Source: a virus. From it: DNA of 64,000 bases. Position 1 is the first letter of the stretch. Each line of letters begins with the position of its first letter. The notes under the pieces were generated by a model. The model did not search any database. It worked only from the letters and a program-made list of their open reading frames with translations, and had not been told where the DNA came from. Location: positions 1 to 64,000 of IMG/VR virus record IMGVR_UViG_3300032224_001305. One strand, written 5' to 3'. A program made the translations under genes and the position numbers. Positions 28,941 through 64,000 of the stretch are shown piece by piece.

Positions 28941-29360
28941 TTATGCCCAGTTGGTAGCTACTACCTGCAGCGTACCGTCCTTCTCCTTAGCAACTTCACA
29001 CGTGTAACCAGCCAACTCTAGTTCCTTCTTTGCCACCGCGGCGGTGTAGTACTGAGGTACTGCGCCAAAGAAGTCGTTTATACCAAACGCTTTGTCCAGC
29101 TTACGCGTGTCATCAACATCGTAGATGACTTCAAGCGTACCAGCTGGAGTAGAACACCAAGCTATATCTTCCACGCCTGAGAACACCTCACGCGGCAGAA
29201 CTAGCGCACAGTTGTGCTGCTCACGATAAGCGGCAAAACCTCTACGAGTAGTATTGGTCTGCAACTTGGTTGCCACGATCTTGTTCATTAATCCAAGAGC
29301 AGATCGTAATGCTTCGACGTTCTTGATCTCAGGTAGTTCCAGTTTTCTCAATGCTGACAT
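28941..29360 (-). CDS. Ycf35-like protein (DUF1257)
   Basis: A 139-aa protein that shows the Ycf35/DUF1257 pattern: RGFAAYREQHNCALVL, DIAW, then LEVIYDVDD, QYYTAAVAKKELELAGYT, and a final KDGTLQVVATNWA. In cyanobacteria and plastids this family is of uncertain function. Here it overlaps the radical SAM gene by 32 nt, and shares an operon with DUF2997 and a Ycf46-type AAA ATPase, its known genomic associates in cyanobacteria and some phages as far as I recall. Confidence 0.7.
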   Translation of the reverse strand: MSALRKLELPEIKNVEALRSALGLMNKIVATKLQTNTTRRGFAAYREQHNCALVLPREVFSGVEDIAWCSTPAGTLEVIYDVDDTRKLDKAFGINDFFGAVPQYYTAAVAKKELELAGYTCEVAKEKDGTLQVVATNWA

Positions 29361-29919
29361 AGTCTCCCTCCGCGCTAGGAAATCCTAGCAGCTTGCTACC
29401 TGTCGGAGTAATCTTGACTTCCACTGAAGGCAGGTTCACCAACATATCTGGAGTTATTTTATAACTCAGACATAGAACCTTTTGATTAGAACTAGATAGC
29501 AGGTTTCGCACAGGAGTCATCGACATCTCCTGCTTGTATGGACCAGCGACTACAGCGTCTATGTACTTCTTGATATCAGCCCATTCCTCAATTTGATTGA
29601 GAGATCGCTGATCTATTCCAGTAAATAAAAGTACGCCTAGTGGTAGGTTCTTAAACCATAACTCTTTTACCAGTTCCAACAACGCCGGTGCTTGCTCTAG
29701 CGGTTCACCGCCACTTATTGATACGCCTTCTGGATTGTCCTGTAGAAGAAGCTTTAGAACTTCTTCTACATCCATTAATTTTCCAGCGCTCTTCGACCAC
29801 GTGTGTTGTGAGAAGCACCCCGGACAACGAATTCGACAGCCCGCAAGGTGGACGATATTCCGTAGGCCAGGCCCATTTACTCGGGTGCGGTACGTGATGT
29901 CTAGTACCGACAATTTCAT
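29329..29919 (-). CDS. Radical SAM protein, NrdG-like
   Basis: A 196-aa protein. The 4Fe-4S motif is C28-x3-C32-x2-C35 in LAGCRIRCPGCFSQHTW. SISGGEPLEQ is the GGE (SAM-binding) motif. Size and N-terminal pattern resemble NrdG-type activases, but no anaerobic reductase gene is in the window. It sits between DUF2997 and DUF1257, so it may instead modify something within that cassette. It overlaps both neighbours, starting at ATGA with DUF2997. Confidence 0.75.
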   Translation of the reverse strand: MKLSVLDITYRTRVNGPGLRNIVHLAGCRIRCPGCFSQHTWSKSAGKLMDVEEVLKLLLQDNPEGVSISGGEPLEQAPALLELVKELWFKNLPLGVLLFTGIDQRSLNQIEEWADIKKYIDAVVAGPYKQEMSMTPVRNLLSSSNQKVLCLSYKITPDMLVNLPSVEVKITPTGSKLLGFPSAEGDYVSIEKTGTT

Positions 29920-30113
29920 GGCTTGCCGTCGTAAATCGAATTGGCGTTGGTTTCTTGAGCGTAAAATTCGGGAGTTTTCTTTTCATCCGCGACCTTTGCG
30001 CCAAGGGCTTCGGTTATCTTATTTATGACCACAAGACAACTGGAACCGGGTGACCCACTTACTTCTATTGTAGACTTGCCTTTCTTATCAATCTTGACTG
30101 TCACCTTTTTCAT
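29916..30113 (-). CDS. DUF2997 small protein
   Basis: A 65-aa protein, MKKVTVKIDKKGKSTIEVSG..., followed by SSCLVVINKITEALG and EFYAQ. This is the DUF2997 layout: two beta-strands, a Cys-containing helix and a C-terminal Glu-Phe/Tyr-Tyr box. ATG 30113 has AAGGAG ahead and is preferred over upstream starts inside the RecA-like gene. It partners DUF1257 and Ycf46-like genes in other genomes. Confidence 0.65.
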   Translation of the reverse strand: MKKVTVKIDKKGKSTIEVSGSPGSSCLVVINKITEALGAKVADEKKTPEFYAQETNANSIYDGKP

Positions 30114-30915
30114 GCAGCTCCTTGAGTTGTTGCGAAGCGCGTTCGTAACCTGGACCAAGCAAAGTGCCGGCTTTGGTAACCCAGTATGCCCCTTTGGATA
30201 CGACCTTCTTAGTCGATATTAGATACTTTAGAAGCTCTAAGTATCTATCTATTCCAGAGTCAGAGAACACATGCACCTGTGTCTTTTTACCAGGCACAGC
30301 GTCTCTATTTCTCTCCACTAAGATGTCTACTTTTCTATAGGCGACCTTACCGTACGCAGACTTTGTTTCAGCTATCTTAAAACTTAGCTTTGCAGTCACG
30401 CCCATATCTGTGTTCAGAGCAGAACGCACTTTATTTACTCTTCCAAGTACGGCGCGTGCTTCGCTTATTAGAACTACTGTGCCACCCGCCTCGTCGCACG
30501 CGTCGGACAGCATATCAATGGTCTCTTGCGTCTCAGTTCTATTGTCAGTGTAGCTTATTCTGTTCAGAGAACGCGCTACGTTTGCGGAGGCTTCTAACGC
30601 TGACGCAGAGTCTACGATTATTAGCAGATTAGGTGTCTGCCGCATTACAATAGAGAACACCGTACCTAAGGTCTTCCAATCTGGGACAGTGGCAATAGTC
30701 GTATCACCAGGCACGCCTAGTTCTAGGTATCTATCTTTATCCAATGGAGTGGTGTGGATAAGTATGGCGGGACGGCCCTCTGAGGCGGCTTGTTTTATCA
30801 AGCACGCCCCAAAGGCCGACTTACCGCTACTCGGCTCTCCATAGATATCTACAACACCAACTGGCAAACCACCAGATAGTAACTCATCTACGGAGTCAAT
30901 GCCGGTAGACTTCAT
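30088..30915 (-). CDS. RecA/RadA-like recombination ATPase
   Basis: A 275-aa RecA-fold ATPase. Walker A is GEPSSGKS (residues 26-33) and Walker B is LLIIVDSAS. The sequence then has ETIDMLSDACDEAGGTVVLISEAR (strand and switch region). The C-terminus KGAYWVTKAGTLLGPGYERA matches the end of the RecA core (K-K-G-A-W-Y...G-x-G). It likely forms filaments on single-stranded DNA for phage recombination, like UvsX. It overlaps the AAA gene by 4 nt (ATGA). Confidence 0.8.
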   Translation of the reverse strand: MKSTGIDSVDELLSGGLPVGVVDIYGEPSSGKSAFGACLIKQAASEGRPAILIHTTPLDKDRYLELGVPGDTTIATVPDWKTLGTVFSIVMRQTPNLLIIVDSASALEASANVARSLNRISYTDNRTETQETIDMLSDACDEAGGTVVLISEARAVLGRVNKVRSALNTDMGVTAKLSFKIAETKSAYGKVAYRKVDILVERNRDAVPGKKTQVHVFSDSGIDRYLELLKYLISTKKVVSKGAYWVTKAGTLLGPGYERASQQLKELHEKGDSQD

Positions 30916-32525
30916 CCGAGGATACTCCCCTTAATAAAGCGCTTCTTTACTGACGATTCACTGGTCGACGCCAACTGCTGTTTGGACGCAGGTATGGCAC
31001 GTGTCTTTGACCACTCTCTCAGCGACTCTATCTCTACTTGCATAGTAGATGATAAAGGCACCATTGATGATATGGCAGAGATCCAGCTAGTCGTAGTGAC
31101 ATCAGTCTTAGCAGAGAACGCGTTATACATAGCACTTACAAAAGACGTATCTATCTCAGCGCCTGAGTAACCAGAGGCTGCTGTAGATATTGTGTCCCAG
31201 TCAAAGCTGGCATCAGCTCTACCGTACTTTGCCGCTACAATCTTTGCGATCTCCATTCTCTCTTTATCGTTTGGAAGATCAACAAAGAACATCGCATCAA
31301 AGCGACCAGCGCGTAGCATCTCTGGCGGCAGAGAACTAACGTCATTAGCGGTAGCTACCACAAACACCGGAGAGGTCTTATCAGACATCCAAGTGAGGAA
31401 GTTGCCGAACACACGGCTGGATGTGCCTCCGTCGTTGCCTCCTGACTTGCCCATGCCCTTTTCCATCTCATCGATGAACAGCACGCACGGTGCAACAGCC
31501 TCAGCAGTCTTTAGTGCGCGTCTCATACGAGACTCGCTTTCGCCAACCAAAGAACCAAACAGTGAGCCGATGTCCATGCGTAGCACAGGCATGTTCCACT
31601 CTTTGCCGATTGTTTTAGCGACCAGAGACTTACCGCAACCAGGAACACCCATCATTAGCAACGCACGCGGAGGCGGCAACCCAAAGTTCTTTGCCTCTTC
31701 AGAGAACGCGTCTGTTCTCTCACGAAGCCATCCCTTCAGATTATCCAGACCGCCTACTACGTGTAAGTCATGCTCTGCGGAGTAATACTCCAACACACCA
31801 GACTTTCTGATGATGGACTTCTTCTCCGACAACAGCATCTGCGTATCTACTTTGCCAGTAGCCACGATAGACATTGCCAACGCTGACGAAACTTCCTGTA
31901 AGGTTAGTCCCACAGTAGTTCTCGCTACAAGCGTAGATAGTTTAGCTATCTCCTTCTCACTGTTCTTATCAGCGAGTAAGTCTTTCAGCGTGTAGTAACA
32001 CTCATGCGCGATCTGCTCTTCTGTAGGAAGATCAAAATCTATCAGCGTTAATACTTTTTCCATACGTGGTGGAATATCCGACTCCGAGTCCACAATGATT
32101 ACTGAAGTAGAATCTCTACGTTCCATCAGTAATTGAGAGCGCAACTCCTTGAGCAGTCTTCCTATTGCGAAGCCACCGCCGCCACCTAAGAAAAAGCCAT
32201 AATCTTTCAACACCATCAAAACGTCTTTAGCACCGTTGGCAGACGCAGACTCTGTCGTAGCGGTCATTAGGTACTTTATGGGTGCTGTAGGATCACCAGC
32301 GTGTTCAGTAAGAACCGTACCCACTTTGTGTGGAGACGTTGATGCAGCGTACTTACAAGCTGTACCAACGCCATATGTCCATACGAGCAGAGCACTATAT
32401 TTATTGTTCTTTGCGATTTCGATTAGATCGTCAACAACCCGGTGCTCCTCGTGAGTTACTACGAAGAGCACCGGATCGCTGGCGCCCAATCTACGCTTAA
32501 TCTGCGTGATTGAATTGTCTGACAT
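30912..32525 (-). CDS. Ycf46-type AAA+ ATPase
   Basis: A 537-aa protein. The N-terminal 240 residues match the Ycf46 layout: LFVVTHEEHRVVDDLIEIA, then a YSALLVWTYGVG segment and a degenerate ATPase-like fold. The C-terminal AAA domain has Walker A GVPGCGKS (293-300), Walker B VLFIDEMEK (D352, E353) and an LRAGRFDAMFFVDLP arginine-finger region. Its start overlaps the ParB stop (TAATG on the reverse strand). It probably remodels protein complexes; substrates are unknown. Confidence 0.8.
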   Translation of the reverse strand: MSDNSITQIKRRLGASDPVLFVVTHEEHRVVDDLIEIAKNNKYSALLVWTYGVGTACKYAASTSPHKVGTVLTEHAGDPTAPIKYLMTATTESASANGAKDVLMVLKDYGFFLGGGGGFAIGRLLKELRSQLLMERRDSTSVIIVDSESDIPPRMEKVLTLIDFDLPTEEQIAHECYYTLKDLLADKNSEKEIAKLSTLVARTTVGLTLQEVSSALAMSIVATGKVDTQMLLSEKKSIIRKSGVLEYYSAEHDLHVVGGLDNLKGWLRERTDAFSEEAKNFGLPPPRALLMMGVPGCGKSLVAKTIGKEWNMPVLRMDIGSLFGSLVGESESRMRRALKTAEAVAPCVLFIDEMEKGMGKSGGNDGGTSSRVFGNFLTWMSDKTSPVFVVATANDVSSLPPEMLRAGRFDAMFFVDLPNDKERMEIAKIVAAKYGRADASFDWDTISTAASGYSGAEIDTSFVSAMYNAFSAKTDVTTTSWISAISSMVPLSSTMQVEIESLREWSKTRAIPASKQQLASTSESSVKKRFIKGSILG

Positions 32526-33724
32526 TACTTAGGCAACTTCTTACCGGCGGAGGTGACGATGCGACGAACCGGCGTCTTAACCACTTCCTCTTCTTCCTCA
32601 GTGTCGTCGCCCAAGTCTTTCTTGGCACGCTTAGCCACCTCGGCTTTCTTCTGAGCCGCCTTCTCTGCGGCCTCCTCCACCTTGCGCTGCTTCTCTGCTT
32701 GCTTGGTGGCTTTCTCTGCCTCTTTCTTCCGAGACGCCTCAGCCTTAGCCGTTTGCTTCTCAGCGTCCTTCTTTTCCTTTTGCGCAACCTTAAGCGCCAG
32801 CTTCTCGTTCTCGCGCTCCACCTTCTCTTCCTCGGAGAGCTTAGGACGACCAGCGCTACGCGGCTTAGCTACCTCTACTTCCTCGTCCTCTACGCTCAAC
32901 TTGTAGTCATTGTCCAGTTCAACGCGCTCCAGTACTTCCTCGTCCGAAAGCTCCAACAGGAACCAACGGATCAGCGTCAGCAATGAATCGCGGTGCGACT
33001 CTTCGATGTCTAGCTCGTCATCGGTGACCAGCGCTTTACGAAGCAGCATGATGTCTGTCTTCGTGCGGTTGGTCGCTTCTTTCTTCTTGGTGTCTTTCTT
33101 CTCGGTCTCGCCGCGACCAAGCATCTTGTTGAGAGCTGCCACCTGTGCGTCTACGTTGGGTACACCCTTCTTAGACAACACCGCCAACTCACGCGCCTGC
33201 TTCAGAGTGATTAGCTCTTTACGCAGCGCATCCTTAGCCTGCGGACAAAGCTGACGGTGCAGCGCCAAGTGGCCGCTGACCCATGACTGGCTCTTACCTA
33301 GAACCTGACCCACCTTCTCCTGATTACCGATGCGCTCCATCAAGCGACCTACCGCGTCAGCGGCATCCGCAGGATTGAGATCCTCACGTTGTACGTTCTC
33401 TGCGACGTTCATCGTGAGTGCGCCGTCTAGGTCACCCTGGTAGACGGTACAATTGATCTCCTGATACATCTCGTCAAAACCGTCGACCTCGTCAATCAGC
33501 TCTTTGATTGCGTGTAGACGACGATGACCAGCGATGAGCAAGAAAAGCTCTTTACCCTCTGCGTCCTCCGTCTGCCAAACCATCGGAGCAGTCAGCAGGC
33601 CGTTAACCTCGATGCTCTTCTTGATCTCCGTCAGATCTCCGACGCTGGTACGACAATTAGTAAAACCGGGATACTCGGTTTTGATTTCGCTCAATGGTAT
33701 TGAAAGGTGCGAGTACTGCTCCAT
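32525..33724 (-). CDS. ParB-like DNA-binding protein with long coiled C-terminus
   Basis: A 399-aa protein. ATG 33724 has GAGGAG ahead; an in-frame ATG 15 nt upstream lacks a site. The ParB/Spo0J N-domain is clear: LLIAGHRRLHAIKEL (box II) and NVAENVQREDLNPADAA (box III), followed by a helix-turn-helix (KVGQVLGKSQSWVSGHLALH). The last 130 residues are a Lys/Glu/Ala coiled coil unlike chromosomal ParB. No ParA is in the window. Together with the E1 and JAMM genes upstream it recalls PRTRC cassettes. A candidate target is the palindrome cluster at 34690-35001. Confidence 0.82.
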   Translation of the reverse strand: MEQYSHLSIPLSEIKTEYPGFTNCRTSVGDLTEIKKSIEVNGLLTAPMVWQTEDAEGKELFLLIAGHRRLHAIKELIDEVDGFDEMYQEINCTVYQGDLDGALTMNVAENVQREDLNPADAADAVGRLMERIGNQEKVGQVLGKSQSWVSGHLALHRQLCPQAKDALRKELITLKQARELAVLSKKGVPNVDAQVAALNKMLGRGETEKKDTKKKEATNRTKTDIMLLRKALVTDDELDIEESHRDSLLTLIRWFLLELSDEEVLERVELDNDYKLSVEDEEVEVAKPRSAGRPKLSEEEKVERENEKLALKVAQKEKKDAEKQTAKAEASRKKEAEKATKQAEKQRKVEEAAEKAAQKKAEVAKRAKKDLGDDTEEEEEVVKTPVRRIVTSAGKKLPK

Positions 33725-33821
33725 AACGTAACTCCTCAAGTTGTTTTGAATTTCTTGCGCTGAACGGGTGGTAGCCAGGGTTTCTCAGCGCGCCTTGTTT
33801 TACTCTTCTAGTAATCTACCG

Positions 33822-34310
33822 TCAACTCGCTGCGACTAAATTTTCAGCAAGCTTGAAGATGCAAGCACGTATATCCGATACTGCTTGCTTGCTAAGTTTG
33901 GCCGTACTGATACCTTCAAGATCGGTATGGACAATCCTAACTAGATCGTCCACGGCAATACTAATAGCGACTCTTTGTGTACTCAGCGTCGTGCCCGACG
34001 CAAGCCGCTCAAACTCTCCGCGCTTTCGCGTTGCTTTTATTTGCTCTGATATACTGTTGATTATATCTGGGCGATCTTCTGGCTTTAGATCGAACAGCGC
34101 TAGCCACTTTGTCATTAACTCATACGAGGGAACTCGCTTGCCACTCTCAACAAGTGATACAGCGCCTGAAGAAACACCTAGCTTTTCAGCCAGCTGTTGT
34201 TGCGTCAGTTCCCTTTCCACACGCAACGTTGTCAAACTTACTCCGTAATAGACAACTCCACTAGCTATTGTTTTATTCCGTAATCGCGTCCGTTTTTGCG
34301 GATTGCTCAT
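33822..34310 (-). CDS. XRE-family transcriptional regulator
   Basis: A 162-aa protein. The helix-turn-helix is LTQQQLAEKLGVSSGAVSLVESGKRVPS, a textbook Cro/CI-type motif. ATG 34310 is chosen over a TTG further upstream. It overlaps the upstream HTH gene by 38 nt. Likely regulates the operon via the palindromes upstream of the pair. Confidence 0.8.
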   Translation of the reverse strand: MSNPQKRTRLRNKTIASGVVYYGVSLTTLRVERELTQQQLAEKLGVSSGAVSLVESGKRVPSYELMTKWLALFDLKPEDRPDIINSISEQIKATRKRGEFERLASGTTLSTQRVAISIAVDDLVRIVHTDLEGISTAKLSKQAVSDIRACIFKLAENLVAAS

Positions 34311-34653
34311 GTAGTGCTCTCGCTTCTGCAATACGCTGGTACTCGAGTATGAACATCACACCTGAGTAAGGTCTAGCGCCTTTGGACGTTTTCTCTTGTT
34401 CTAGGCGTTGCTCTAGATACATACCCAGAAGAGTAGCAACAGCGGGATCTGGGTCATCAAGGGAAACTGGGATACCAGCTACACGAAGTATGTCTAAAAG
34501 CATTTCGAGGGATATATTACCGTTTATACTTTTGTAGAAAGCGGCTGAAGATATTCCAAGCTGGCGAATTATTTCATAGTTTGGCATCTCCGAGCGACTT
34601 ATCAGATATTTTATCTGCTCTGCTAGTGTCACTCTGTCCACCTCATATAACAT
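34273..34653 (-). CDS. Second HTH regulator
   Basis: A 126-aa protein with an XRE-like motif (PNYEIIRQLGISSAAFYKSINGNISLEMLLDILRVAG). First gene downstream of the repeat-rich region. Together the two HTH proteins could form a switch acting on the palindromes, as lysogeny or copy-control regulators do; this is inference. Confidence 0.7.
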   Translation of the reverse strand: MLYEVDRVTLAEQIKYLISRSEMPNYEIIRQLGISSAAFYKSINGNISLEMLLDILRVAGIPVSLDDPDPAVATLLGMYLEQRLEQEKTSKGARPYSGVMFILEYQRIAEARALHEQSAKTDAITE

Positions 34654-34692
34654 TTCTAGTTTTGTTAAACTAACTGTCTCGAATCATCAACT

Positions 34693-34714
34693 CTCTACCA
34701 ATTGGTTGGTAGAG
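34693..34714. repeat. Palindrome A1
   Basis: Nine-bp arms CTCTACCAA and TTGGTAGAG around TTGG. First of three family members (others at 34807 and 34980). Confidence 0.85.
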
Positions 34715-34748
34715 TGATAATCATTGCACTTTTAAAAACACCTCTCTA

Positions 34749-34779
34749 CCTCTTAGTTTGTAAACATTACTAGTAATGT
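34749..34779. repeat. Composite repeat B1 (forward copy)
   Basis: CCTCTTAGTTTGTAA followed by the perfect 16-bp palindrome ACATTACTAGTAATGT. The same composite recurs inverted at 34914-34944 with one mismatch. Confidence 0.85.
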
Positions 34780-34806
34780 AAAACTGAGGGTAACGAAACA
34801 ACAACT

Positions 34807-34828
34807 CTCTACCAATCAGTTAGTAGAG
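34807..34828. repeat. Palindrome A2
   Basis: Arms CTCTACCAA and TTAGTAGAG (one mismatch) around TCAG; second member of the A family. Confidence 0.8.
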
Positions 34829-34913
34829 TGAATTTCATTATAGATTTTTATCTGAAGAACAAACCTCTTGGTTTGCAGTCTAACTTACTATACCTCTAAT
34901 CAACTAATACTTA

Positions 34914-34944
34914 ACATTACTAGTAATGATTACAAACTAAGAGG
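34914..34944. repeat. Composite repeat B2 (inverted copy)
   Basis: CATTACTAGTAATG followed by ATTACAAACTAAGAGG, the reverse complement of B1. A diverged half-copy (CCTCTTGGTTTGCAG) starts near 34864. Confidence 0.85.
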
Positions 34945-34979
34945 TTAGTAGTACTAGAAGAAAAAGTCAATAAAATTGA

Positions 34980-35001
34980 CTCTACCAACCTGTTGGTAGA
35001 G
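34980..35001. repeat. Palindrome A3 (perfect)
   Basis: Ten-bp arms CTCTACCAAC and GTTGGTAGAG around CT, followed by TTTTG. Being downstream of the reverse gene at 35049, it may also act as its terminator. Confidence 0.85.
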
Positions 35002-35048
35002 TTTTGTTGTTTCGATAGTATCGATTTTACAAAACTAGAAATGTTAAG

Positions 35049-36062
35049 TTAGAGAAGCTTTCGTACCTTGGTCAGCTGATTTGTCTTTGTTCCAGCAGAA
35101 GCTGTCTCAGCCGTTTGGAATTGAGAGACGACAATAACGTTCTTACCGTCGTATACCAGCTCTCCGCCTGCGGCGGTTACCGTCAGCGTGTGCATTATTT
35201 TATCGAACGAAATAATACGCAGAATCGGATAAACCTTCTTTAGATCTTCCAGTGTCCGATACAAAGTATCCGCGTCAGCAGGATTGTTGTTTACCATTCC
35301 CGCTAACGCGTTTGTAAGCTTCGCATACAACTCAGCTAGGTTGCAGTTGTTCATCTCTATGTTTATTGCCTCTATCTTGTGCAGAATAGGCAATATGTGC
35401 ATCTGGTCACCAGGTGGTAACTCAGCCTTCCACGTGATGATGTTTACCGCAAACTGCTTTCTTGCGATCTGAAGATCACCAAGAGTCTCTTCAAGCCATG
35501 ACAGCACGTTCCAGATACTTTCTTTCTGCGCGTCACTGATAGTCGCACCCGGTAGGGTAAGAGCAATAAGGCGCTTGTACTCCTCCAGCCACTTGTTCAT
35601 TCTGTAGTGCAGTTTGTCTAGCTCGTCCGCTAGGGCGGTCACATCAAAGAAACCGCGTATGACTTCCCACTCCAGACGCTCTGCTTCTACCTTGAACGCA
35701 CTGAAATCCTCGGCGTTCAGCGAGAAGTGCTGCCAGATGTAGTACGGTAGACGAACTCGCTTGGTCTTGGGTGGCGGTTCTTTGAACCACGGAGGAACCG
35801 CAGCTAAGGACGCAAACTGCGTAACCACCGCAGCGGTCTCTTCGTCCATCACGCGCATAGGCATGTAGATAACGGCGCCGTCTTTGGTCATGCGGTATCT
35901 GTACACATGGCCCTTCTCTTTTGGACTCAGTTCACTCTTGTTGTAGGGGGCATTGTCTACCGGGTCTCGGTAGATGTTCTTGTGGAACTTTCCAAGACCC
36001 GTACTGTCTCGCCACTCAATGAAAATACCAATGTCCTCAGCGTCATTACGAACACCCTGCAT
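35049..36062 (-). CDS. Unknown protein of the ubiquitin-like cassette
   Basis: A 337-aa protein with an AGGAGG site. The first 110 residues are mixed; residues 120-290 are helical; the C-terminus has a small beta hairpin (ITHTLTVTAAGGELVYDGKNVIVV-like). No family is recognised. It is the last gene of the reverse operon that holds the E1, JAMM, E2 and Ubl genes, so it may be a regulator, substrate or PRTRC-type accessory protein. Confidence 0.65.
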   Translation of the reverse strand: MQGVRNDAEDIGIFIEWRDSTGLGKFHKNIYRDPVDNAPYNKSELSPKEKGHVYRYRMTKDGAVIYMPMRVMDEETAAVVTQFASLAAVPPWFKEPPPKTKRVRLPYYIWQHFSLNAEDFSAFKVEAERLEWEVIRGFFDVTALADELDKLHYRMNKWLEEYKRLIALTLPGATISDAQKESIWNVLSWLEETLGDLQIARKQFAVNIITWKAELPPGDQMHILPILHKIEAINIEMNNCNLAELYAKLTNALAGMVNNNPADADTLYRTLEDLKKVYPILRIISFDKIMHTLTVTAAGGELVYDGKNVIVVSQFQTAETASAGTKTNQLTKVRKLL

Positions 36063-36079
36063 TTAATCCTCCTAGGTAA

Positions 36080-36131
36080 AGAAGAGAGACACACGTAGAC
36101 AGGCTAGGCCCGTCCACGTGTACTCTCTTCT
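36080..36131 (-). terminator. Long intergenic hairpin in the ubiquitin-like operon
   Basis: Arms 36080-36096 and 36116-36131 (AGAAGAGAG...CACGT against ACGTGTACTCTCTTCT) pair almost completely. It lies between the genes at 36135 and 36062. No good T-run follows, so processing or attenuation is more likely than full termination. Confidence 0.55.
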
Positions 36132-36134
36132 CCT

Positions 36135-36830
36135 TTAAGCAACTGACTTCTTAACTTCAGACGTGCGCATGAACTTCTTTCCAGACATCTTCATGGCAGC
36201 TACCTCGCCCATGGTGAGGTGATTCGTCACCGCAATGCTTGAGGAGAACTGGTCCCACTCGCCTTCCACGATAGTAGCAAAGGATGGCGGAACGCGACCA
36301 GCCAGAAGTTTTCCGAAGAATGGCAGGGCCACGAGCTTGTGGTGCATCAGGATACCCACAAGCTCACTCTCCATGCCGAGCAGCTCGTACATCGCCATAT
36401 CTTCTTCGGTAGTCTCCCCGGTCACCACCGAGAAGCCGCGGTTGTGCAGCCAAGTGCTGAGGTCTACACCCAGCTCTTCCAGGTCAGCCTCTCGCTGCTC
36501 CACAGTGTAGAACGCCGTGACATGGTGCATGAACGCCTTCTGAAGCATCTGACGACTAATGTCATACTGCTCCTTGGTTCGAACAGCTCCACGCTTAGGA
36601 TTACCGCCATCTACGATGAAGTTAAGTGCGGGACCGTACGGAATACTACCGTTGGCACCGATGACCAAAGACACCTTACAGAAATCATCAGACTCGGTCG
36701 AGAAGGGGCGACCGATCCAAGCGAGCTCATCGCCAATCCTGGTTTGCACCAAGATCGTCTTGGTTCCATTGAACTCGATAGTGAAGCGGACAGGCGACGA
36801 TTCCGTCGCCAAGAAGTAAGGTGTACGCAT
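36135..36830 (-). CDS. Unknown protein next to the E1-like gene
   Basis: A 231-aa alpha/beta protein with a CGAGGT site. It starts with a beta-rich region (VRFTIEFNGTKTILVQT) and has helices in the second half. No family is recognised. Its constant neighbours here (E1 upstream, 26-nt gap) make it a likely component of the conjugation system, perhaps equivalent to one of the PRTRC proteins of unknown role. Confidence 0.65.
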   Translation of the reverse strand: MRTPYFLATESSPVRFTIEFNGTKTILVQTRIGDELAWIGRPFSTESDDFCKVSLVIGANGSIPYGPALNFIVDGGNPKRGAVRTKEQYDISRQMLQKAFMHHVTAFYTVEQREADLEELGVDLSTWLHNRGFSVVTGETTEEDMAMYELLGMESELVGILMHHKLVALPFFGKLLAGRVPPSFATIVEGEWDQFSSSIAVTNHLTMGEVAAMKMSGKKFMRTSEVKKSVA

Positions 36831-36856
36831 TTATTTATACCTCGCGCTATATGCGC

Positions 36857-37522
36857 TTAACGTGCTTGAGGAAGCACGGTGAAATTACGAAAATCCACAG
36901 CTACCTGATGTGGATATTTCTCACTGATAATCCAGCTCACCAACGCTGAGCACATGAGACTTGCAATCCCATAAGCGCAGAAGATCGTTGAGCGAGCCGT
37001 GCACGGTTCTGTAAACGCTTCAGCGTCACTGTGTAGTGATCCCAGATAGTTTGCCACTGAGTCTTTGTCTTCCTTATCGACAAAGAACACCTTGCCAAAT
37101 CTAGAACCCATACGACCGTCGAGATAGATCTTAGTCGACGGATCGTTTAGGAAGTTGGTGAACACAAGCTGACGTGCAGCCATGCTGTCCAAGGCGGACA
37201 CAACCAACTCTGTTCCAAACGCCCCGCCTTCATAGAACTGATCGTGCGGTACAATGGTGACGCCAGTTCCTACTTCTAGGCGTTCCTTTAGAGCATCCAC
37301 TTTCTTCTTACCAAGGTCATTCAAGTAGTAACCCTGGTTAGCAATATTATGGGACTCAACGGTATCAGCATCCCAGACGTGCATTACTCCTATACCAGTT
37401 TTTGCTAGCACTTCTGCAACGTGGGAGCCGATAGAACCGACACCAACGACAGTTGTTGTCATACCTGATACCTCTTGAGGGATCAGTGTAGATTGGCGTG
37501 TGAAATCTAGCTTGACAGCCAT
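36857..37522 (-). CDS. E1-like (ThiF/MoeB-family) adenylyltransferase
   Basis: A 221-aa minimal E1. The nucleotide loop is GVGSIG (residues 27-32) in TTTVVGVGSIGSHVAEVLA. WDADTVESHNIANQGYY supplies the acidic residue and N-x-x-x-Q of the adenylation site, followed by K-x-D-A-L. SALDSMAARQ fits the D-x-x-x-x-R box. Cys174 in TEPCTARS is the candidate thioester Cys. It would adenylate the C-terminal Gly of the Ubl at 39499 and pass it to the E2. ATG 37522 overlaps the JAMM gene; a TTG 12 nt upstream is also possible. Confidence 0.85.
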   Translation of the reverse strand: MAVKLDFTRQSTLIPQEVSGMTTTVVGVGSIGSHVAEVLAKTGIGVMHVWDADTVESHNIANQGYYLNDLGKKKVDALKERLEVGTGVTIVPHDQFYEGGAFGTELVVSALDSMAARQLVFTNFLNDPSTKIYLDGRMGSRFGKVFFVDKEDKDSVANYLGSLHSDAEAFTEPCTARSTIFCAYGIASLMCSALVSWIISEKYPHQVAVDFRNFTVLPQAR

Positions 37523-38379
37523 TTGCGTGTCCAATATCCGATATTATCTCGGATCGTTTCGGGTTTCTTCTCAACGTTTATAACGGTGCTTTCCGTCTTT
37601 ACCTGTCTTTCCTCTATTTTTTTAGCCTTTGCCGGCTCCTCTATAAATCTCACCGGAGGCACGTTCCTAGTGCCCTGCCATCCCCACCAGGCAGGAAAGT
37701 CATCGTCGTCATCATGTAGTTTAGTCTTTACCGGCAGGTTGGTCTGAACTCCAGCCTGCCACGTTCTAGTGACCGGAGCAGTAAAGGACTGTTTCTGTAC
37801 GGTGACCACGTTGTGCATACGCTCAACTTTAGCCAGTGACTCTTCTATCCACTTATTAGTAACGGTGCCCTGATACAACACACCGTACGAGCAGTTGACT
37901 ACGGTATTTCTGTACACGCTGTTGTTGTTACCGTGGCTGTTGGGATCATACGTATCTAGACGCAAGTACAGATTATTGCCAGGATCTTTACCAGCTAGCG
38001 CGGCTGCAGCACCACTTTTATTAGTGATAATACTCCACATAAAGGCGCCGTTAGCCAGACGATCGATAGTAGCTTCGTCTGTGCCAGAGGGACTAGCTGT
38101 CATGTTCACGTGGCTGTGGAAGAACACACGCAGTCTAGAAGTATCAGCGCCCTGATTGATCAACTCTAGCTGCAGCAAAGACAGAGACTGGTCGTCCATC
38201 TCAGTGTACACACCAGAGCACTTTTGCTTTGGTACATAAAACTCTTGAACGACATCGTCTCTGCCAGGCAGCAGCAAGCCGAGAGCAGAGATCTCGATAT
38301 CGCATGCCTCGGTAAGACGCCACATCTGTATCCACGCCTTGGGCGTGAACAGAAGCTTCTTCGTTTGCACTACACTCAT
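37507..38379 (-). CDS. JAMM/MPN (JAB) metalloprotease
   Basis: A 290-aa protein. Glu29 (CDIEISALG) and the motif H88-S-H90-x7-S98-x2-D101 in FFHSHVNMTASPSGTD are a complete JAMM zinc site. These enzymes remove ubiquitin-like proteins from targets or trim Ubl precursors. About 130 C-terminal residues beyond the JAMM domain are not recognised. It overlaps the E2 gene by 4 nt (ATGA) and the E1 gene by 16 nt, a tight operon. Confidence 0.88.
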   Translation of the reverse strand: MSVVQTKKLLFTPKAWIQMWRLTEACDIEISALGLLLPGRDDVVQEFYVPKQKCSGVYTEMDDQSLSLLQLELINQGADTSRLRVFFHSHVNMTASPSGTDEATIDRLANGAFMWSIITNKSGAAAALAGKDPGNNLYLRLDTYDPNSHGNNNSVYRNTVVNCSYGVLYQGTVTNKWIEESLAKVERMHNVVTVQKQSFTAPVTRTWQAGVQTNLPVKTKLHDDDDDFPAWWGWQGTRNVPPVRFIEEPAKAKKIEERQVKTESTVINVEKKPETIRDNIGYWTRKWLSS

Positions 38380-39410
38380 GATACCGTCCTAGGTACGCAG
38401 CCAGAGTTGTTTAGGCCGCTGTTTGTTTCTAGAGATACTAGCGAGAACATATGTAGCTTTGCGCAACAAGTGGGACATGAGCCACAATGTGACACTGCCG
38501 TTTCCTGAAAGCAGTTAGCGCAGAAAATACTCTCGTGTACATGCTCACAACCCTGAGCGGCCGGAGCTACGCCAAGATCGTTGCAGTGTGGACACACGAT
38601 CCTACCCCAAGGACCTTTGGGATCCCTATCTATGAGATTGGTATACGCGCTCGCTGGATTAGCAAACAACAGACAACCGCTTAGAAGTGCCAGCGCGTTG
38701 GCCACGTTTCCATGTAGTAAAGAGTCTGAGATACGTATAGCCTCGTCACCCGTACACACACTGTTGTTGTAGTTTATGTGCGGGTGGTCGCGAAACGTCG
38801 TAACAACATCGTTACTATCTTTAGCAGTGACCTGTAGATTAGCGCCGTATCTCTGTACATCCCAGCCAAGTTTTACTAGGTACGAACCATACTTTTCGTG
38901 CGATTTGAGACCGGTACCTCGCTGAATAATACGGAATACCTTTGTGCGAAACTCTACGTTGATTCTGGGGGGTTCAGTACCACTCTGAGTAGAGACAGTA
39001 ACCGTAGGCACATCAACGGTACTGAGTAGCTCTGAGGCGTTGTCATAGTCAAACGTATCGCACAGATCTTTGTAGCTCTCAAACAGCGCTTTATTTTTAA
39101 TGATATACTGAATAGCTTTTATAGTGCTTTGGTGACGGTCATTAAGCTCATCAGACTTGCGTTCGGCGTAGTAAACTTCGTCAGCAAGTGCTTGTTCCTT
39201 TGTTGTGATTAGTCGAAGCTTTTCTTTAAGCTTTTCCTTCTCTTCTTTTATAGCGTCTATAAACGCCTGCTTCTTCTCTTTAACCTCCTTGAGTTCGGCG
39301 TCAGCAGTGTCGACAAGCTTCTTAGTCTGCTCCGCCTCTACCCGTTTTGACTCTATGGTACTGTCATCTACTTTGAAACAGCCCATCAAACGCGTTTTCA
39401 GTTCTGACAT
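38376..39410 (-). CDS. E2-like conjugating enzyme fused to a RING-like zinc domain
   Basis: A 344-aa protein in three parts. Residues 20-110 form a coiled coil. Residues about 130-260 contain H209-P-H-I-N-x-N-x-S-V-C219, exactly the spacing of the HPN...C active site of ubiquitin E2 enzymes. Residues 270-320 have C273-x2-C276-x11-C288-x3-H292-x4-C297-x2-C300-x11-C312-P-T-C315, close to a C3HC4 RING finger including its CPxC end. The fusion would join conjugation and ligase-like functions. It follows the Ubl gene after a terminator-like hairpin. Confidence 0.8.
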   Translation of the reverse strand: MSELKTRLMGCFKVDDSTIESKRVEAEQTKKLVDTADAELKEVKEKKQAFIDAIKEEKEKLKEKLRLITTKEQALADEVYYAERKSDELNDRHQSTIKAIQYIIKNKALFESYKDLCDTFDYDNASELLSTVDVPTVTVSTQSGTEPPRINVEFRTKVFRIIQRGTGLKSHEKYGSYLVKLGWDVQRYGANLQVTAKDSNDVVTTFRDHPHINYNNSVCTGDEAIRISDSLLHGNVANALALLSGCLLFANPASAYTNLIDRDPKGPWGRIVCPHCNDLGVAPAAQGCEHVHESIFCANCFQETAVSHCGSCPTCCAKLHMFSLVSLETNSGLNNSGCVPRTVS

Positions 39411-39420
39411 TGCTGACCCC

Positions 39421-39468
39421 TAAAAACGCGAGAGGGCACCACATACTAGATGTATGCAGTGCCCCCTC
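39421..39468 (-). terminator. Terminator/attenuator between the Ubl and E2 genes
   Basis: On the reverse strand the arms 39468-39452 and 39446-39430 pair over about 15 of 17 bp, then CGCG is followed by TTTTT. It should make the Ubl mRNA more abundant than that of the enzymes, as one wants for a modifier. Confidence 0.7.
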
Positions 39469-39498
39469 ACGCAGCCATAGACCTACGCCGCTACCAAA

Positions 39499-39909
39499 TT
39501 AGCCAGCGTTGACGTTGACCTGCACCATGATGGTGTGATTGCCTGCGGGCACCGGGTCGTTAGCCGACAGCGGGACGAGCTGGCTGTCACGAACGTAAGC
39601 ATAGCTAGCGGTGCTGGTATTCCAGCCAGCCGAAGCCACGATGTCCTTGATAGGCGTACCAGGGACGAAGTTCACCGGAACCGCGTCCTTACCCAAGCTA
39701 CCCTTGAGAAGGACGGTGTTACCGCCCTGAGCCTCAGCCAGCTTCTCGTTGTACGCCGCCTTGGCGCGCGTCATCTTAGCCGCAGCGGCAGTCAACTCAT
39801 CCATGTTCTCGGTCGAGAACTCTTCTTCGAATGCCGCCTTGGCATCTTCGTACGCGTTGGTGGCTTCGTCCAGAATGCGCTGCAGATCATCAATCGAGAG
39901 TGCGCCCAT
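39499..39909 (-). CDS. Ubiquitin-like beta-grasp modifier with helical N-terminus
   Basis: A 136-aa protein. Residues 5-60 are a helical hairpin (acidic). Residues 64-136 show the beta-grasp order: NTVLLKGSLG, PVNFVPGTPIKDIVASAG (strand 2 and helix), SYAYVRDSQLVPLSAND, and PAGNHTIMVQVNVNAG. It ends in a single Gly, as required for E1 activation without trimming. The family closest in pattern is ThiS/PRTRC-C/bacterial Ubl. Strong GGAGAA site. Encoded first in the conjugation cassette. Confidence 0.75.
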   Translation of the reverse strand: MGALSIDDLQRILDEATNAYEDAKAAFEEEFSTENMDELTAAAAKMTRAKAAYNEKLAEAQGGNTVLLKGSLGKDAVPVNFVPGTPIKDIVASAGWNTSTASYAYVRDSQLVPLSANDPVPAGNHTIMVQVNVNAG

Positions 39910-42412: not shown

Positions 42413-42497
42413 TGGTGCGAGAAGCGGGACTTGAACCCGCACGCCAAAAAGCGAAAGATTTTAAGTCTCTTGCGTCTACCGATTCCGCCATTCTCGC
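42413..42497 (-). tRNA. tRNA-Leu(UAA)
   Basis: Class II tRNA with a long variable arm. The acceptor GCGAGAA pairs with its 3' strand; anticodon TAA sits in loop CTTAAAA; CCA is encoded. Confidence 0.95.
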
Positions 42498-42523
42498 GAA
42501 GCATAACGACTAACCATATACAG

Positions 42524-42596
<73 letters not shown>

Positions 42597-42636
42597 TTAG
42601 CTGGTAACGCGTACGCTACCAGAGTTTTATAAAATA

Positions 42637-43233
42637 TCAACACTGCGTAGATAGTTCTGCAAATCTATCGTTGTAGTAATTCTTTAACGTTCCACGCAAG
42701 TAAGGAAAGTCTCCTAAGAGCGCTGGCAAGTGCGTACGTAGTTTCGCCCGATCGTTGAACTTACCGATGTTAGTAGGATCAACTAAGTACGGCACCTTAT
42801 TCCTATCAGCGTAGTCTCGTATAGAAGACCTATTAGTGTTTAGCATAGGTCTAAACACTTTTCCGTTTACTACTGGCGTATAGGAGGGATTACCCTTAAA
42901 CGCCGTTATTAAATACCACTCTATTGCGTCATCCAATGTGTGTCCAGTAACTACCTGTGCTTCAGACATCTGGTAATACTGGCTACGCATATCGTGCCAC
43001 TCTGCCTCTGTACCATATGGTAGCTTAGTAACACAGAGCGGTAATTCGTGGTCAGAACAGTAGTCTTCCACTAGACACCGACTTAGCTTTGAGAAGTCCG
43101 ACTCACCGTGCTGAAAATGTAGTACAGTTATATCTTTCCTACCCACTCTACAGAAATGGAGTAGCGCCATAGAATCTGGACCACCAGAGCATGCAACTAC
43201 AACGCGCCTATCAATATTAGGGCTGAATAACAT
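42637..43233 (-). CDS. tilS: tRNA(Ile)-lysidine synthase, minimal
   Basis: A 198-aa PP-loop ATPase. VVVACSGGPDSMALLHF is the SGGxDS loop (residues 16-21). Then come HFQHGESDFS, RSQYYQ, VTGHTLDDAIEWYL and RPMLNTNRSSIRDYA, the usual order for TilS N-domains. It lacks the C-terminal domains of the larger TilS type. It modifies C34 of CAU-anticodon tRNA-Ile to lysidine so that it reads AUA. ATG 43233 with AGGAG is the start; a longer frame would run into the tRNA-Arg. Confidence 0.82.
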   Translation of the reverse strand: MLFSPNIDRRVVVACSGGPDSMALLHFCRVGRKDITVLHFQHGESDFSKLSRCLVEDYCSDHELPLCVTKLPYGTEAEWHDMRSQYYQMSEAQVVTGHTLDDAIEWYLITAFKGNPSYTPVVNGKVFRPMLNTNRSSIRDYADRNKVPYLVDPTNIGKFNDRAKLRTHLPALLGDFPYLRGTLKNYYNDRFAELSTQC

Positions 43234-43252
43234 TTGCACTCCTATAACATAA

Positions 43253-43329
<77 letters not shown>

Positions 43330-43342
43330 ACTGAAAACAATT

Positions 43343-43419
43343 TGGTCGGAGTGAAGGGATTCGAACCCATGACCCTCTGCTCCCAAAGCAGATGCGCTAC
43401 CAGACTGCGCTACACTCCG
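43343..43419 (-). tRNA. tRNA-Pro(UGG)
   Basis: Acceptor CGGAGTG, anticodon TGG in loop TTTGGGA, CCA encoded. Confidence 0.95.
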
Positions 43420-43565
43420 AAAGGCTCCTGCACAATTAAGCATCGTGCTAACGCGTGGAGTACACGACGATCTTACTTCTGTCGCTGGACTAGGCCATAC
43501 GGCGCCCGATGGGGGACGAGAGAAGAGATAGATCGCGACCCGGAGGTGAACACCCCATCTCCAGG

Positions 43566-43648
43566 TGGAAGGTGGTAGATTCGAACTACCGTAGGCTGAC
43601 GCCGGCAGATTTACAGTCTGCTCCAATTGGCCACTCTGGCAACCTTCC
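43566..43648 (-). tRNA. tRNA-Tyr(GUA)
   Basis: Class II tRNA, acceptor GGAAGGT, anticodon GTA in loop CTGTAAA, long variable arm. The 3' end is ACCT, so CCA is not fully encoded. The 146 nt between this tRNA and tRNA-Pro hold no gene I recognise. Confidence 0.93.
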
Positions 43649-43681
43649 ATTGGGGTGCGCTCGCAGGATGATCCTAGACCG

Positions 43682-44245
43682 CTAACTTAACTGCTGATCT
43701 ACGCAATGCTCGACAGACATAAAGTCCGTATGTGCTTTGCATCTAGGCTCGTACCCTTCTTTACCTCCGACCTTAACTTCTTCCTGCTTCTCCACCAAAG
43801 TAATTGTGTAGTAGGCGTCGTTTCCGCAGAAGCAAACCGCGGGACAAAGCTCAATCTTTGTTGCCCACGGCAGTATCTTTGCCATCTCTGGAAAGGCGCT
43901 ACCTTCTGACGAGAGCTGCAAGGAGGAGACGTATATTTGCTTTCCTTGTTTGTATAACTCAACCAGAACGTCTGACACCCCCGGTATCATAAAGGCTTCG
44001 TCAACCGCTATTACCTCTGCTTTACCTAGATGGTCAAAGATCTCTCTACCCTCGCTGATAGGAATAGACTCCCAGCGGTTTCCGTTATGAGAAACAACAG
44101 CCTTCGTTGCATACCTAGTATCAATGCTCGGCTTGAACAGTTTAATTACCTTCTTCTGGTATTTTGCTCTTTCCAGCTGCGAAAGCATTCTTGACGTTTT
44201 ACCGCCGAACATTGGGCCGGTGAAGACTACAAACTCTTGTTTCAT
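43682..44245 (-). CDS. tdk: Thymidine kinase (type II)
   Basis: A 187-aa enzyme. The P-loop is GPMFGGKT (residues 10-17), followed by IAVDEAFMI as the Walker B/DEAQF-like box and a C-terminal zinc site (CPAVCFCGN with a later RCKAH). It makes dTMP from thymidine for phage DNA synthesis. It is embedded between tRNAs and probably co-transcribed with them. Confidence 0.92.
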   Translation of the reverse strand: MKQEFVVFTGPMFGGKTSRMLSQLERAKYQKKVIKLFKPSIDTRYATKAVVSHNGNRWESIPISEGREIFDHLGKAEVIAVDEAFMIPGVSDVLVELYKQGKQIYVSSLQLSSEGSAFPEMAKILPWATKIELCPAVCFCGNDAYYTITLVEKQEEVKVGGKEGYEPRCKAHTDFMSVEHCVDQQLS

Positions 44246-44264
44246 TTTTATACTCTAGTTGTAG

Positions 44265-44337
44265 TGCGCTCGGAGGGAATCGAACCCTCGACCAACAGAT
44301 TAAAAGTCTGCTGCTCTACCGACTGAGCTACAAGCGC
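44265..44337 (-). tRNA. tRNA-Lys(UUU)
   Basis: Acceptor GCGCTTG (one G-U pair), anticodon TTT in loop CTTTTAA. CCA is not encoded. Confidence 0.95.
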
Positions 44338-44342
44338 AGCCG

Positions 44343-44456
44343 CTATTTATTCTTAAGATACATCCCGATTAAATCTATTATGATTGATACACCGAAGCCA
44401 AACGCGGCTCCCCATACAAATCCCTCTATACCAGAAGCGCTAGCTAGATAATCCAA
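44343..44456 (-). CDS. Possible 37-aa membrane peptide between tRNAs
   Basis: A short frame from TTG at 44456 with a strong AGGAGG 4 nt upstream. The product (LDYLASASGIEGFVWGAAFG...) has one hydrophobic helix and ends MYLKNK. A longer frame would start inside tRNA-Gly and is rejected. Function unknown. Confidence 0.45.
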   Translation of the reverse strand: MDYLASASGIEGFVWGAAFGFGVSIIIDLIGMYLKNK

Positions 44457-44484
44457 GCTACCTCCTACTAGATTAGTATCACTG

Positions 44485-44559
44485 TGGAGCGGGCGATGGG
44501 ATTCGAACCCACGACGTTCAGCTTGGAAGGCTGACACTCTACCGCTGAGTTACACCCGC
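44485..44559 (-). tRNA. tRNA-Gly(UCC)
   Basis: Acceptor GCGGGTG, anticodon TCC in loop CTTCCAA, CCA encoded. Confidence 0.95.
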
Positions 44560-44575
44560 GTCCCCATTATAGATG

Positions 44576-44664
44576 TGGCGGAGGGAGAGGGATTCGAACC
44601 CCCGGACGCTTTTAACGTCGACGGTTTTCAAGACCGCTCCATTAAACCACTCTGGCATCCCTCC
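44576..44664 (-). tRNA. tRNA-Ser(UGA)
   Basis: Class II tRNA, acceptor GGAGGGA, anticodon TGA in loop CTTGAAA, long variable arm, CCA encoded. Confidence 0.95.
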
Positions 44665-44720
44665 GGCTAGTACCGCCCGTGAGGACGGCACCGTTACACC
44701 TTGTACACGTGGTACATGTG

Positions 44721-45101
44721 CTATTTCTGAAACTGCTCAGGATCGTCCGCATCGGTGTCTACCTGTAGCATAGACGCGACCAACTGACATATTTTCATTT
44801 TAGTGTAGTGGGTTTGGTTAGACAACGGACACTTACTCAAGAAGTAGCTTGTGTGTAGAAAGCCTGATGCAGGTGCTTCGAACACGTAAGATTCTCCTAA
44901 CGTTCGTCCTAAGACGTAAACCGAGTTATCGTCCGGAGCAATACACGCTATGGCCTTGTATCTAGTTCCGTCGCCTGGTTGCCATTCCACCACAACCACG
45001 TTTTCTTTAATGCAAACTTTATTCGTTCCCGGCCTGCTATATGGACTGTACGCAGCATCTAACCTGCTACTCACGTTGTCGGCATATGTCGAATCAAACA
45101 T
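44721..45101 (-). CDS. Hypothetical protein within the tRNA array
   Basis: A 126-aa protein with GAGGTAGCC ahead of the ATG. The middle is beta-rich (VCIKENVVVVEWQPGDGTRY). No family is recognised. Confidence 0.6.
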   Translation of the reverse strand: MFDSTYADNVSSRLDAAYSPYSRPGTNKVCIKENVVVVEWQPGDGTRYKAIACIAPDDNSVYVLGRTLGESYVFEAPASGFLHTSYFLSKCPLSNQTHYTKMKICQLVASMLQVDTDADDPEQFQK

Positions 45102-45116
45102 GGCTACCTCAAATAA

Positions 45117-45383
45117 TTAGGTCCAATCTCTAACCACTAGAAATACACCAGTGGCTACCGTGTAACCGACGCCCTCCATTAGAGCTATCTTTACTCGATC
45201 TTGTGCACTACGTGCTTCTACTATCAATATCGTAGGAACCATAGCTATAAGCGGGTAAGTAAAGCTAATGGCCAATCCAAGGGTGTACACCTTGTTATTG
45301 GCCGCGTACGCTGCTACGTCGAACCACATCTGCAGTAGGAACGCAGCTAAAAAAGCGGCAACGTATTTAGCTTTATTACTCAT
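45117..45383 (-). CDS. Small membrane protein within the tRNA array
   Basis: An 88-aa protein with two or three membrane helices (YVAAFLAAFLLQMWFDVAAY, LGLAISFTYPLIAMVPTILI, VGYTVATGVFLVV). ATG 45383 has AGGAA ahead; a longer frame enters tRNA-Ala and is rejected. Three-helix phage membrane proteins may be holins, but nothing here proves it. Confidence 0.6.
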   Translation of the reverse strand: MSNKAKYVAAFLAAFLLQMWFDVAAYAANNKVYTLGLAISFTYPLIAMVPTILIVEARSAQDRVKIALMEGVGYTVATGVFLVVRDWT

Positions 45384-45404
45384 ATTAAATTCCTGGTTAT
45401 TTGG

Positions 45405-45480
45405 TGGTGGACTCAAGGGGGATCGAACCCCTGACCCTCGGCTTGCAAAGCCGATGCTCTCCCAGCTGAGCTATGAGCCC
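45405..45480 (-). tRNA. tRNA-Ala(UGC)
   Basis: Acceptor GGGCTCA, anticodon TGC in loop TTTGCAA, CCA encoded. Confidence 0.95.
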
Positions 45481-45575
45481 TTGGTAAAAAGCGCGTGATA
45501 GCCAATATCATGGCGATATACAGAGACACTCGCTCTGCATATCGGCCACTCGGCGTGGACTTTGACTATACGCGC

Positions 45576-45650
45576 TGGTGGATGCTGAGGGATTCGAACC
45601 CCCGACTGCCTCCGTGTAAAGGAGGAACTCTACCGCTGAGTTAAGCATCC
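45576..45650 (-). tRNA. tRNA-Val(UAC)
   Basis: Acceptor GGATGCT, anticodon TAC in loop TTTACAC, CCA encoded. Confidence 0.93.
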
Positions 45651-45776
45651 TTAAGGAAAGTACCTGAGCGCCTTTATAGGTAGCGCTTTCCTGCTGCAAC
45701 AGGCATGCGTTTTACCAGTGAGCACTTGCAGGTGCTTACTCGATCTGTCGCATCTTTCTAAATCAGGTACTCCCGG

Positions 45777-45850
45777 TGGGCCCTCTGGGATTTGAACCCA
45801 GTACCCGCAGTTTATGAGACTGCTGCTCTAACCGATTGAGCTAAGGGCCC
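45777..45850 (-). tRNA. tRNA with CAU anticodon, probably tRNA-Ile2 (lysidine type)
   Basis: Acceptor GGGCCCT, anticodon CAT in loop CTCATAA, T-loop TTCAAAT. Not an initiator, since the first pair is G-C. The acceptor and T-arm are closer to bacterial tRNA-Ile2 (GG-CCCT, TTCAA) than to elongator tRNA-Met, and tilS lies in the same array. CCA is not encoded. Elongator Met remains possible. Confidence 0.85.
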
Positions 45851-45867
45851 GTTCACCTAACTGACAG

Positions 45868-45949
45868 TGCGTGTAGAGGGACTCGAACCCCCACGTCTCT
45901 CAACAACAGAACCTAAATCTGCCGCGTCTACCAATTCCGCCATACACGC
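45868..45949 (-). tRNA. tRNA-Leu(UAG)
   Basis: Class II tRNA, acceptor GCGTGTA, anticodon TAG in loop TTTAGGT, long variable arm. CCA is not encoded. First tRNA of the array in the direction of transcription. Confidence 0.93.
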
Positions 45950-63773: not shown

Positions 63774-64000
63774 CAAAACAAGCCGCACATGCAGACGATA
63801 GGCTACGTGAGCGTACCAAGGCTCACCCTGCCGTCTTGCATGAGCTACGTAAGAAATTACGAAGAATAAAACTAGAGCGCGGAACCCACCATGCTAGGAT
63901 ACCTGGCGGTGGCTACGCTGTTCTAAAAGATATTGGCGACCGTCATGTAGTAGCTACAGTACTAGCTAGCAACATGAATCCGCCTGGCAAAGACGTAAGT
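63752..64000 (+). CDS. Hypothetical protein, 3' truncated by the window
   Basis: The frame runs off the right edge after 83 codons. It starts MDQDSYLAKQAAHADDRLRER and continues with a basic helical region and a beta-rich GGGYAVLKDIGDRHVVATVL. The N-terminus has a weaker L-A-K-x-A form of the motif. Function unknown. Confidence 0.58.
   Translation, partial: MDQDSYLAKQAAHADDRLRERTKAHPAVLHELRKKLRRIKLERGTHHARIPGGGYAVLKDIGDRHVVATVLASNMNPPGKDVS

Follow-up and report, generated by a model that had tools for sequence, protein, structure and literature searches.

The virus record analysed here is 101,375 bp long and is covered by the window from base 1 to base 64000. Its terminase, endolysin, ribonucleotide reductase, thymidylate synthase and ligase genes, together with its tRNAs, mark it as that of a large tailed phage. 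The record carries no end repeats and may be incomplete; its terminase relatives are roughly 39-46% identical, and no close relative was found. Between the frame of a small predicted helix-turn-helix (HTH) regulator, HTH2, and a stop codon at 35049 lies a gene-free stretch (34654-35048) that measures 395 nt rather than the 330 nt given in a preliminary description. Within it are three copies of a 22-bp palindrome (A), two of a 16-bp palindrome (B), two degenerate B copies at the edges and a 16-nt box (C), arranged in the order B0, A1, C1-B1, A2, C3, B2-C2, A3, B4 (Table 1). As all flanking genes are encoded on the minus strand, this array is positioned upstream of a run of HTH2, HTH1, ParB, AAA and RecA-like genes, and it also sits downstream of a separate minus-strand gene group.

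Table 1. Features of the array and of the genes on either side, in window coordinates.
Feature	Position	Strand	Remark
RecA/UvsX-like recombinase	30088-30915	-	next gene after AAA ATPase
AAA ATPase, PHROG 8638	30912-32525	-	next gene of the run after ParB
ParB with GxRR and ENxQRE boxes and ParB HTH	32525-33724	-	third gene after the array
HTH1, clear Cro/CI-type regulator	33822-34310	-	HTH_3 E 4.5e-11
HTH2, small Cro/CI-like regulator (predicted)	34273-34653	-	weak family match
Whole array, long imperfect inverted repeat	34648-35046		arms 34648-34782 and 34911-35046, centre about 34847
B0, degenerate B site, 3 mismatches	34650-34665		overlaps first ATG of HTH2 frame
A1 palindrome CTCTACCAATTGGTTGGTAGAG	34693-34714		
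C1 box TTACAAACTAAGAGGT	34748-34763	-	adjoins B1
B1, perfect 16-bp palindrome ACATTACTAGTAATGT	34764-34779		
A2 palindrome, 1 mismatch	34807-34828		
C3, third C box, 3 mismatches	34863-34878	-	without attached B site
B2 palindrome, 1 mismatch	34914-34929		
C2 box	34930-34945	+	adjoins B2; inverted copy of C1-B1
A3 palindrome	34979-35002		22-bp palindrome at 34980-35001; RNA form terminator-like on both strands
B4, degenerate B site, 3 mismatches	35029-35044		right edge
Uncharacterised protein	35049-36062	-	
Uncharacterised protein	36135-36830	-	
ThiF/E1	36857-37534	-	
JAB protein	37507-38379	-	
Coiled-coil protein with Cys/His-rich RING-like tail	38376-39410	-	
Predicted ubiquitin-like protein, C-terminal beta-grasp	39499-39909	-	

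The three A copies are the palindromes of one family that had been reported previously, and the two inverted composite repeats noted alongside them correspond to a C-B block that occurs at 34748-34779 and, inverted, at 34914-34945, with a single mismatch in 32 nt. The centres of B and A lie exactly 46 bp apart in each of the pairs B0-A1, B1-A2 and B4-A3, and the three B-A units, two direct and one inverted, match across about 86 nt. The longest runs invariant among them are the site cores; since part of the B-to-A spacer (TCGAAACAACAA) is conserved as well, duplication is the probable origin of the units. The sequence CAAACC-GGTTTG at 34860-34875, opposite A2, was rejected as a fourth A-like copy, its alignment being no better than those of shuffled sequences. 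The array contains five palindromes with arms of at least 7, whereas 1000 sequences simulated from a first-order Markov model had 0.28 on average and always fewer than five; the segment starting at the array has the highest palindrome count in the record. The arms of the long inverted repeat share 109 identities, with 19 mismatches and 15 gap positions; their score of 129 is the highest of its kind in the record, and shuffled sequences reached 64 at most. Furthermore, the array has a GC content of 30-31%, compared with about 49% for the record, and is the lowest in this respect among intergenic regions longer than 150 nt.

A genome-wide search for the palindromes, whose abundance elsewhere the preliminary description had named as the finding that would tell against its proposal, placed every match to A (at most 1 mismatch) and to B (at most 3 mismatches) in the 101-kb record within the array. 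Outside the array, every site in these 101 kb differs from B at more than 3 positions and from the A consensus CTCTACCAA-N4-TTGGTAGAG at more than 2, and an asymmetric match at 72517, inside a predicted gene, shows 2 mismatches to a looser A pattern. A partial B-like site with 4 mismatches (33802-33817), possibly a chance occurrence, is present in the HTH1-parB gap. Scans of IMG/VR with the exact A and B patterns yielded isolated matches only, none with a surrounding clustered array; the terminal repeat of the array had no match in the same database, and BLASTN of the array stretch returned nothing in phages or plasmids.

ParB and two HTH genes do lie just downstream, as first described, with ParB as the third gene in the order array, HTH2, HTH1, ParB, and with HTH2 weakly supported as an HTH protein. 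Family scores for the latter are low (best E 0.046 in PHROGs and 0.17 in Pfam) and a fold search with its model gave no usable match; from its helix pattern it is likely of the Cro/CI type too. Its likelier start appears to be a GTG at 34632-34630, behind GAGGTGG, in which case B0 would fall in the leader. ParB displays the CTP-box motifs GHRRLHA at 66 and ENVQRE at 109, followed by the ParB HTH (HTH_ParB E 1.2e-9), and aligns with Spo0J and Noc chains, features by which its sequence places it in the ParB CTPase clamp family. The ParA-binding motif, defined as (L/F/I)G(K/R)G(L/F/I) (PMC12704722), has no match in ParB. A ParA-type ATPase (PF13614, detected in 14 of 14 controls) is likewise absent from the 101-kb record, which may be incomplete, so that the earlier observation of ParB without ParA is supported for the DNA examined. 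With the same proviso on completeness, a scan for tyrosine integrases (PF00589, present in 14 of 14 controls) found none in the record. In PADLOC and NCBIfam the AAA ATPase shows similarity to the defence ATPase IetA/IteA, at a score far below the NCBIfam cut-off, and a DUF1257-like gene (28941-29360) and a radical-SAM protein gene (29329-29919) are found near it.

Directly upstream of the array, on the minus strand (35049-39909), the phage encodes a cassette of predicted ubiquitin-like, RING-like, JAB and ThiF/E1 proteins. A single-sequence model of the ubiquitin-like protein (pLDDT 81) gives VIA-align Z values of 9-10 to ubiquitin-like folds and 9.3 to a bacterial multi-ubiquitin protein. 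Having ParB and ThiF encoded close to a predicted ubiquitin-like protein is reminiscent of the ParB- and ThiF-related PRTRC cassette; however, ParB reaches 52.8 of 278.6 bits and ThiF 44.2 of 144.75 bits, both far below the curated cut-offs, and the PRTRC E model found no match in a search run without a positive control. Further along the same strand (42413-45949), 12 clustered tRNA genes are interrupted by genes for a PP-loop ATPase (42637-43287, PF01171) and for a thymidine kinase (43682-44245).

Relatives were gathered by terminase, which gave 56 records. ParB is present at about 30-35% in 10 of these 56, in other gene contexts, and no comparable array was found near ParB in those inspected. 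A perfect 20-bp palindrome (CCGGACTTCATGAAGTCCGG) lies inside parB of two related phage records (L131:8080-8099 and L132:8223-8242) and is possibly a parS-like site of those relatives' ParBs. Scans for close relatives with HTH2, ParB and AAA found none; a terminase-alignment scan of bacterial and archaeal genomes recovered two distant fragments; the gene at 35049-36062, HTH1 and HTH2 had no match in six related records, in a search that had no positive control.

Together, two unrelated palindrome families upstream of two predicted HTH genes and one ParB gene call to mind plasmid RK2. There, KorB, a clamp protein of the ParB family, is loaded onto DNA at a 16-bp site and slides with CTP, and KorA, sitting on a 12-bp site of its own, locks it (PMC11790492). 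By analogy, we propose, with about even confidence, that the array is a multi-operator control region for the HTH2-HTH1-ParB-AAA-RecA-like run, bound by the HTH protein or proteins and by ParB in a KorA/KorB-like manner. In the RK2/RP4 KorA-KorB central control operon, a ParB-family and a small HTH protein are co-encoded and two operator families sit at their own operon (PMC11790492); the phage has a corresponding HTH and ParB gene content and two palindrome families, which would be the counterpart of those operators. The phage differs in its operator sequences, in having no homologue of the ParA protein IncC and in the mirror-symmetric composite form of its units; moreover, RK2 operators are spread over several promoters, whereas close A and B sites occur at a single locus in the phage. 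Phage Cro/CI operator regions, too, have three palindromic operators ahead of a Cro/CI-type repressor gene; the array is set apart from these by its second operator family, by ParB in the gene run, by the lack of a tyrosine integrase and by having no divergent early gene adjoining it.

Concerning binding partners, CTP use, repression and promoter position, we infer a scheme in which two or more of the three DNA-binding proteins from the genes just downstream would occupy the B-A palindrome pairs. In the simplest assignment the 22-bp A sites would belong to an HTH protein and the 16-bp B sites to ParB, although the two could be exchanged, or HTH1 and HTH2 could divide both site families between them. 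ParB could then load onto B sites, close into a clamp with CTP and slide, while the HTH protein at A would hold or help it, and the resulting nucleoprotein block would repress or time the operon. Confinement of the A and B sites to the array locus is what local autoregulation would predict, and the position ahead of the HTH-HTH-ParB run speaks for an autoregulatory control region no less than for plasmid maintenance or an origin. The constant 46-bp spacing of three matching B-A units and a ParB with CTP-box motifs but no ParA-binding motif are further points in favour of this reading. Against such an operator region, a search of the minus strand here revealed no sigma-70-like promoter; the mirror symmetry and the 400 bp exceed the needs of one operon; no relative with a comparable array was found; and HTH2 is weakly supported as an HTH protein.

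The main rival, unlikely in our estimate, is a ParB-binding centromere, that is, a parS-like array through which phage DNA would be held, condensed or segregated independently of ParA, for example in a plasmid-like or pseudolysogenic state. B is a perfect 16-bp palindrome, the length of chromosomal parS, with several copies three genes from parB, and ParB-parS systems such as those of the phage-plasmid P1 and F sopC likewise combine a ParB bearing CTP-box motifs with repeated 16-bp palindromes near its gene. By contrast with those systems, the phage presents neither a ParA nor a ParA-binding motif, the two features on which assignment to ParABS by sequence would depend, and it carries a second palindrome family paired at fixed spacing. 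ParB alone leaves the A family and the 46-bp pairing unexplained, and no replication-initiator gene was recognised among the proteins scanned. The missing motif is weak evidence against a centromere, since P1 ParB also lacks a canonical one (PMC12704722), and the lack of a tyrosine integrase in the record is in its favour: a phage group with ParB and without ParA or integrase, for which extrachromosomal persistence has been proposed, offers a precedent (PMC10286716). What stands of the partition site or origin put forward initially is a dedicated protein-binding array beside ParB and HTH genes, which is well supported; the further step to either function has no positive evidence, and plasmid-like maintenance, for which ParA, a tyrosine integrase and a ParA-binding motif were all sought and not found, is possible without positive support. 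Rather less probably, an orphan ParB clamp and one or two HTH proteins on the mirror-symmetric paired operators would form a ParA-independent nucleoprotein hub, both controlling the operon and organising phage DNA.

That the array is the phage's DNA replication origin we consider improbable, even though it is AT-rich, with the lowest GC in the record, contains iteron-like repeats and has RecA-like and AAA genes, candidates for recombination and ATPase functions, downstream. GC skew follows the strand of the genes, with turns close to 20 kb and 46 kb and none at the array, which makes an origin here less likely, and the array contains no DnaA or IHF consensus box. More doubtful still is an RNA device, in which the transcript would fold into a single, very long hairpin serving for termination, for attenuation or as an RNase III cleavage site between two operons. 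A single strand of the array does fold at -144 kcal/mol (z -11.5), and 3 terminator-like hairpins, where 0.3 would be expected, are formed by A3 on each strand and by A2 on the minus strand; given its behaviour on both strands, A3 may end a transcript coming from the upstream genes. However, any long inverted repeat of palindromic sites would fold in this way whatever its role, the change in A2 breaks pairing without compensation, and the tail past A2 is no more than weakly U-rich. A degenerate mobile element, foldback or MITE, is hardly credible: its terminal inverted repeats (TAACATTTCTAGTTTTGT) flanked by TA and a base composition unlike the remaining phage would fit, but the stretch is single-copy in the record, its terminal sequence has no counterpart in IMG/VR, DNA similar to it was not found in phages or plasmids, and its internal B-A units keep a fixed spacing.

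ParB genes without ParA are present in phages, and a 2023 report stated that no characterised phage with ParB alone was known to its authors (PMC10286716). The locus offers a compact, testable case: it encodes three candidates for DNA-binding proteins, its two site families are clearly distinct, and their geometry is fixed. If ParB is locked at this array by an HTH partner, the clamp-and-lock repression of RK2 would extend to phages.
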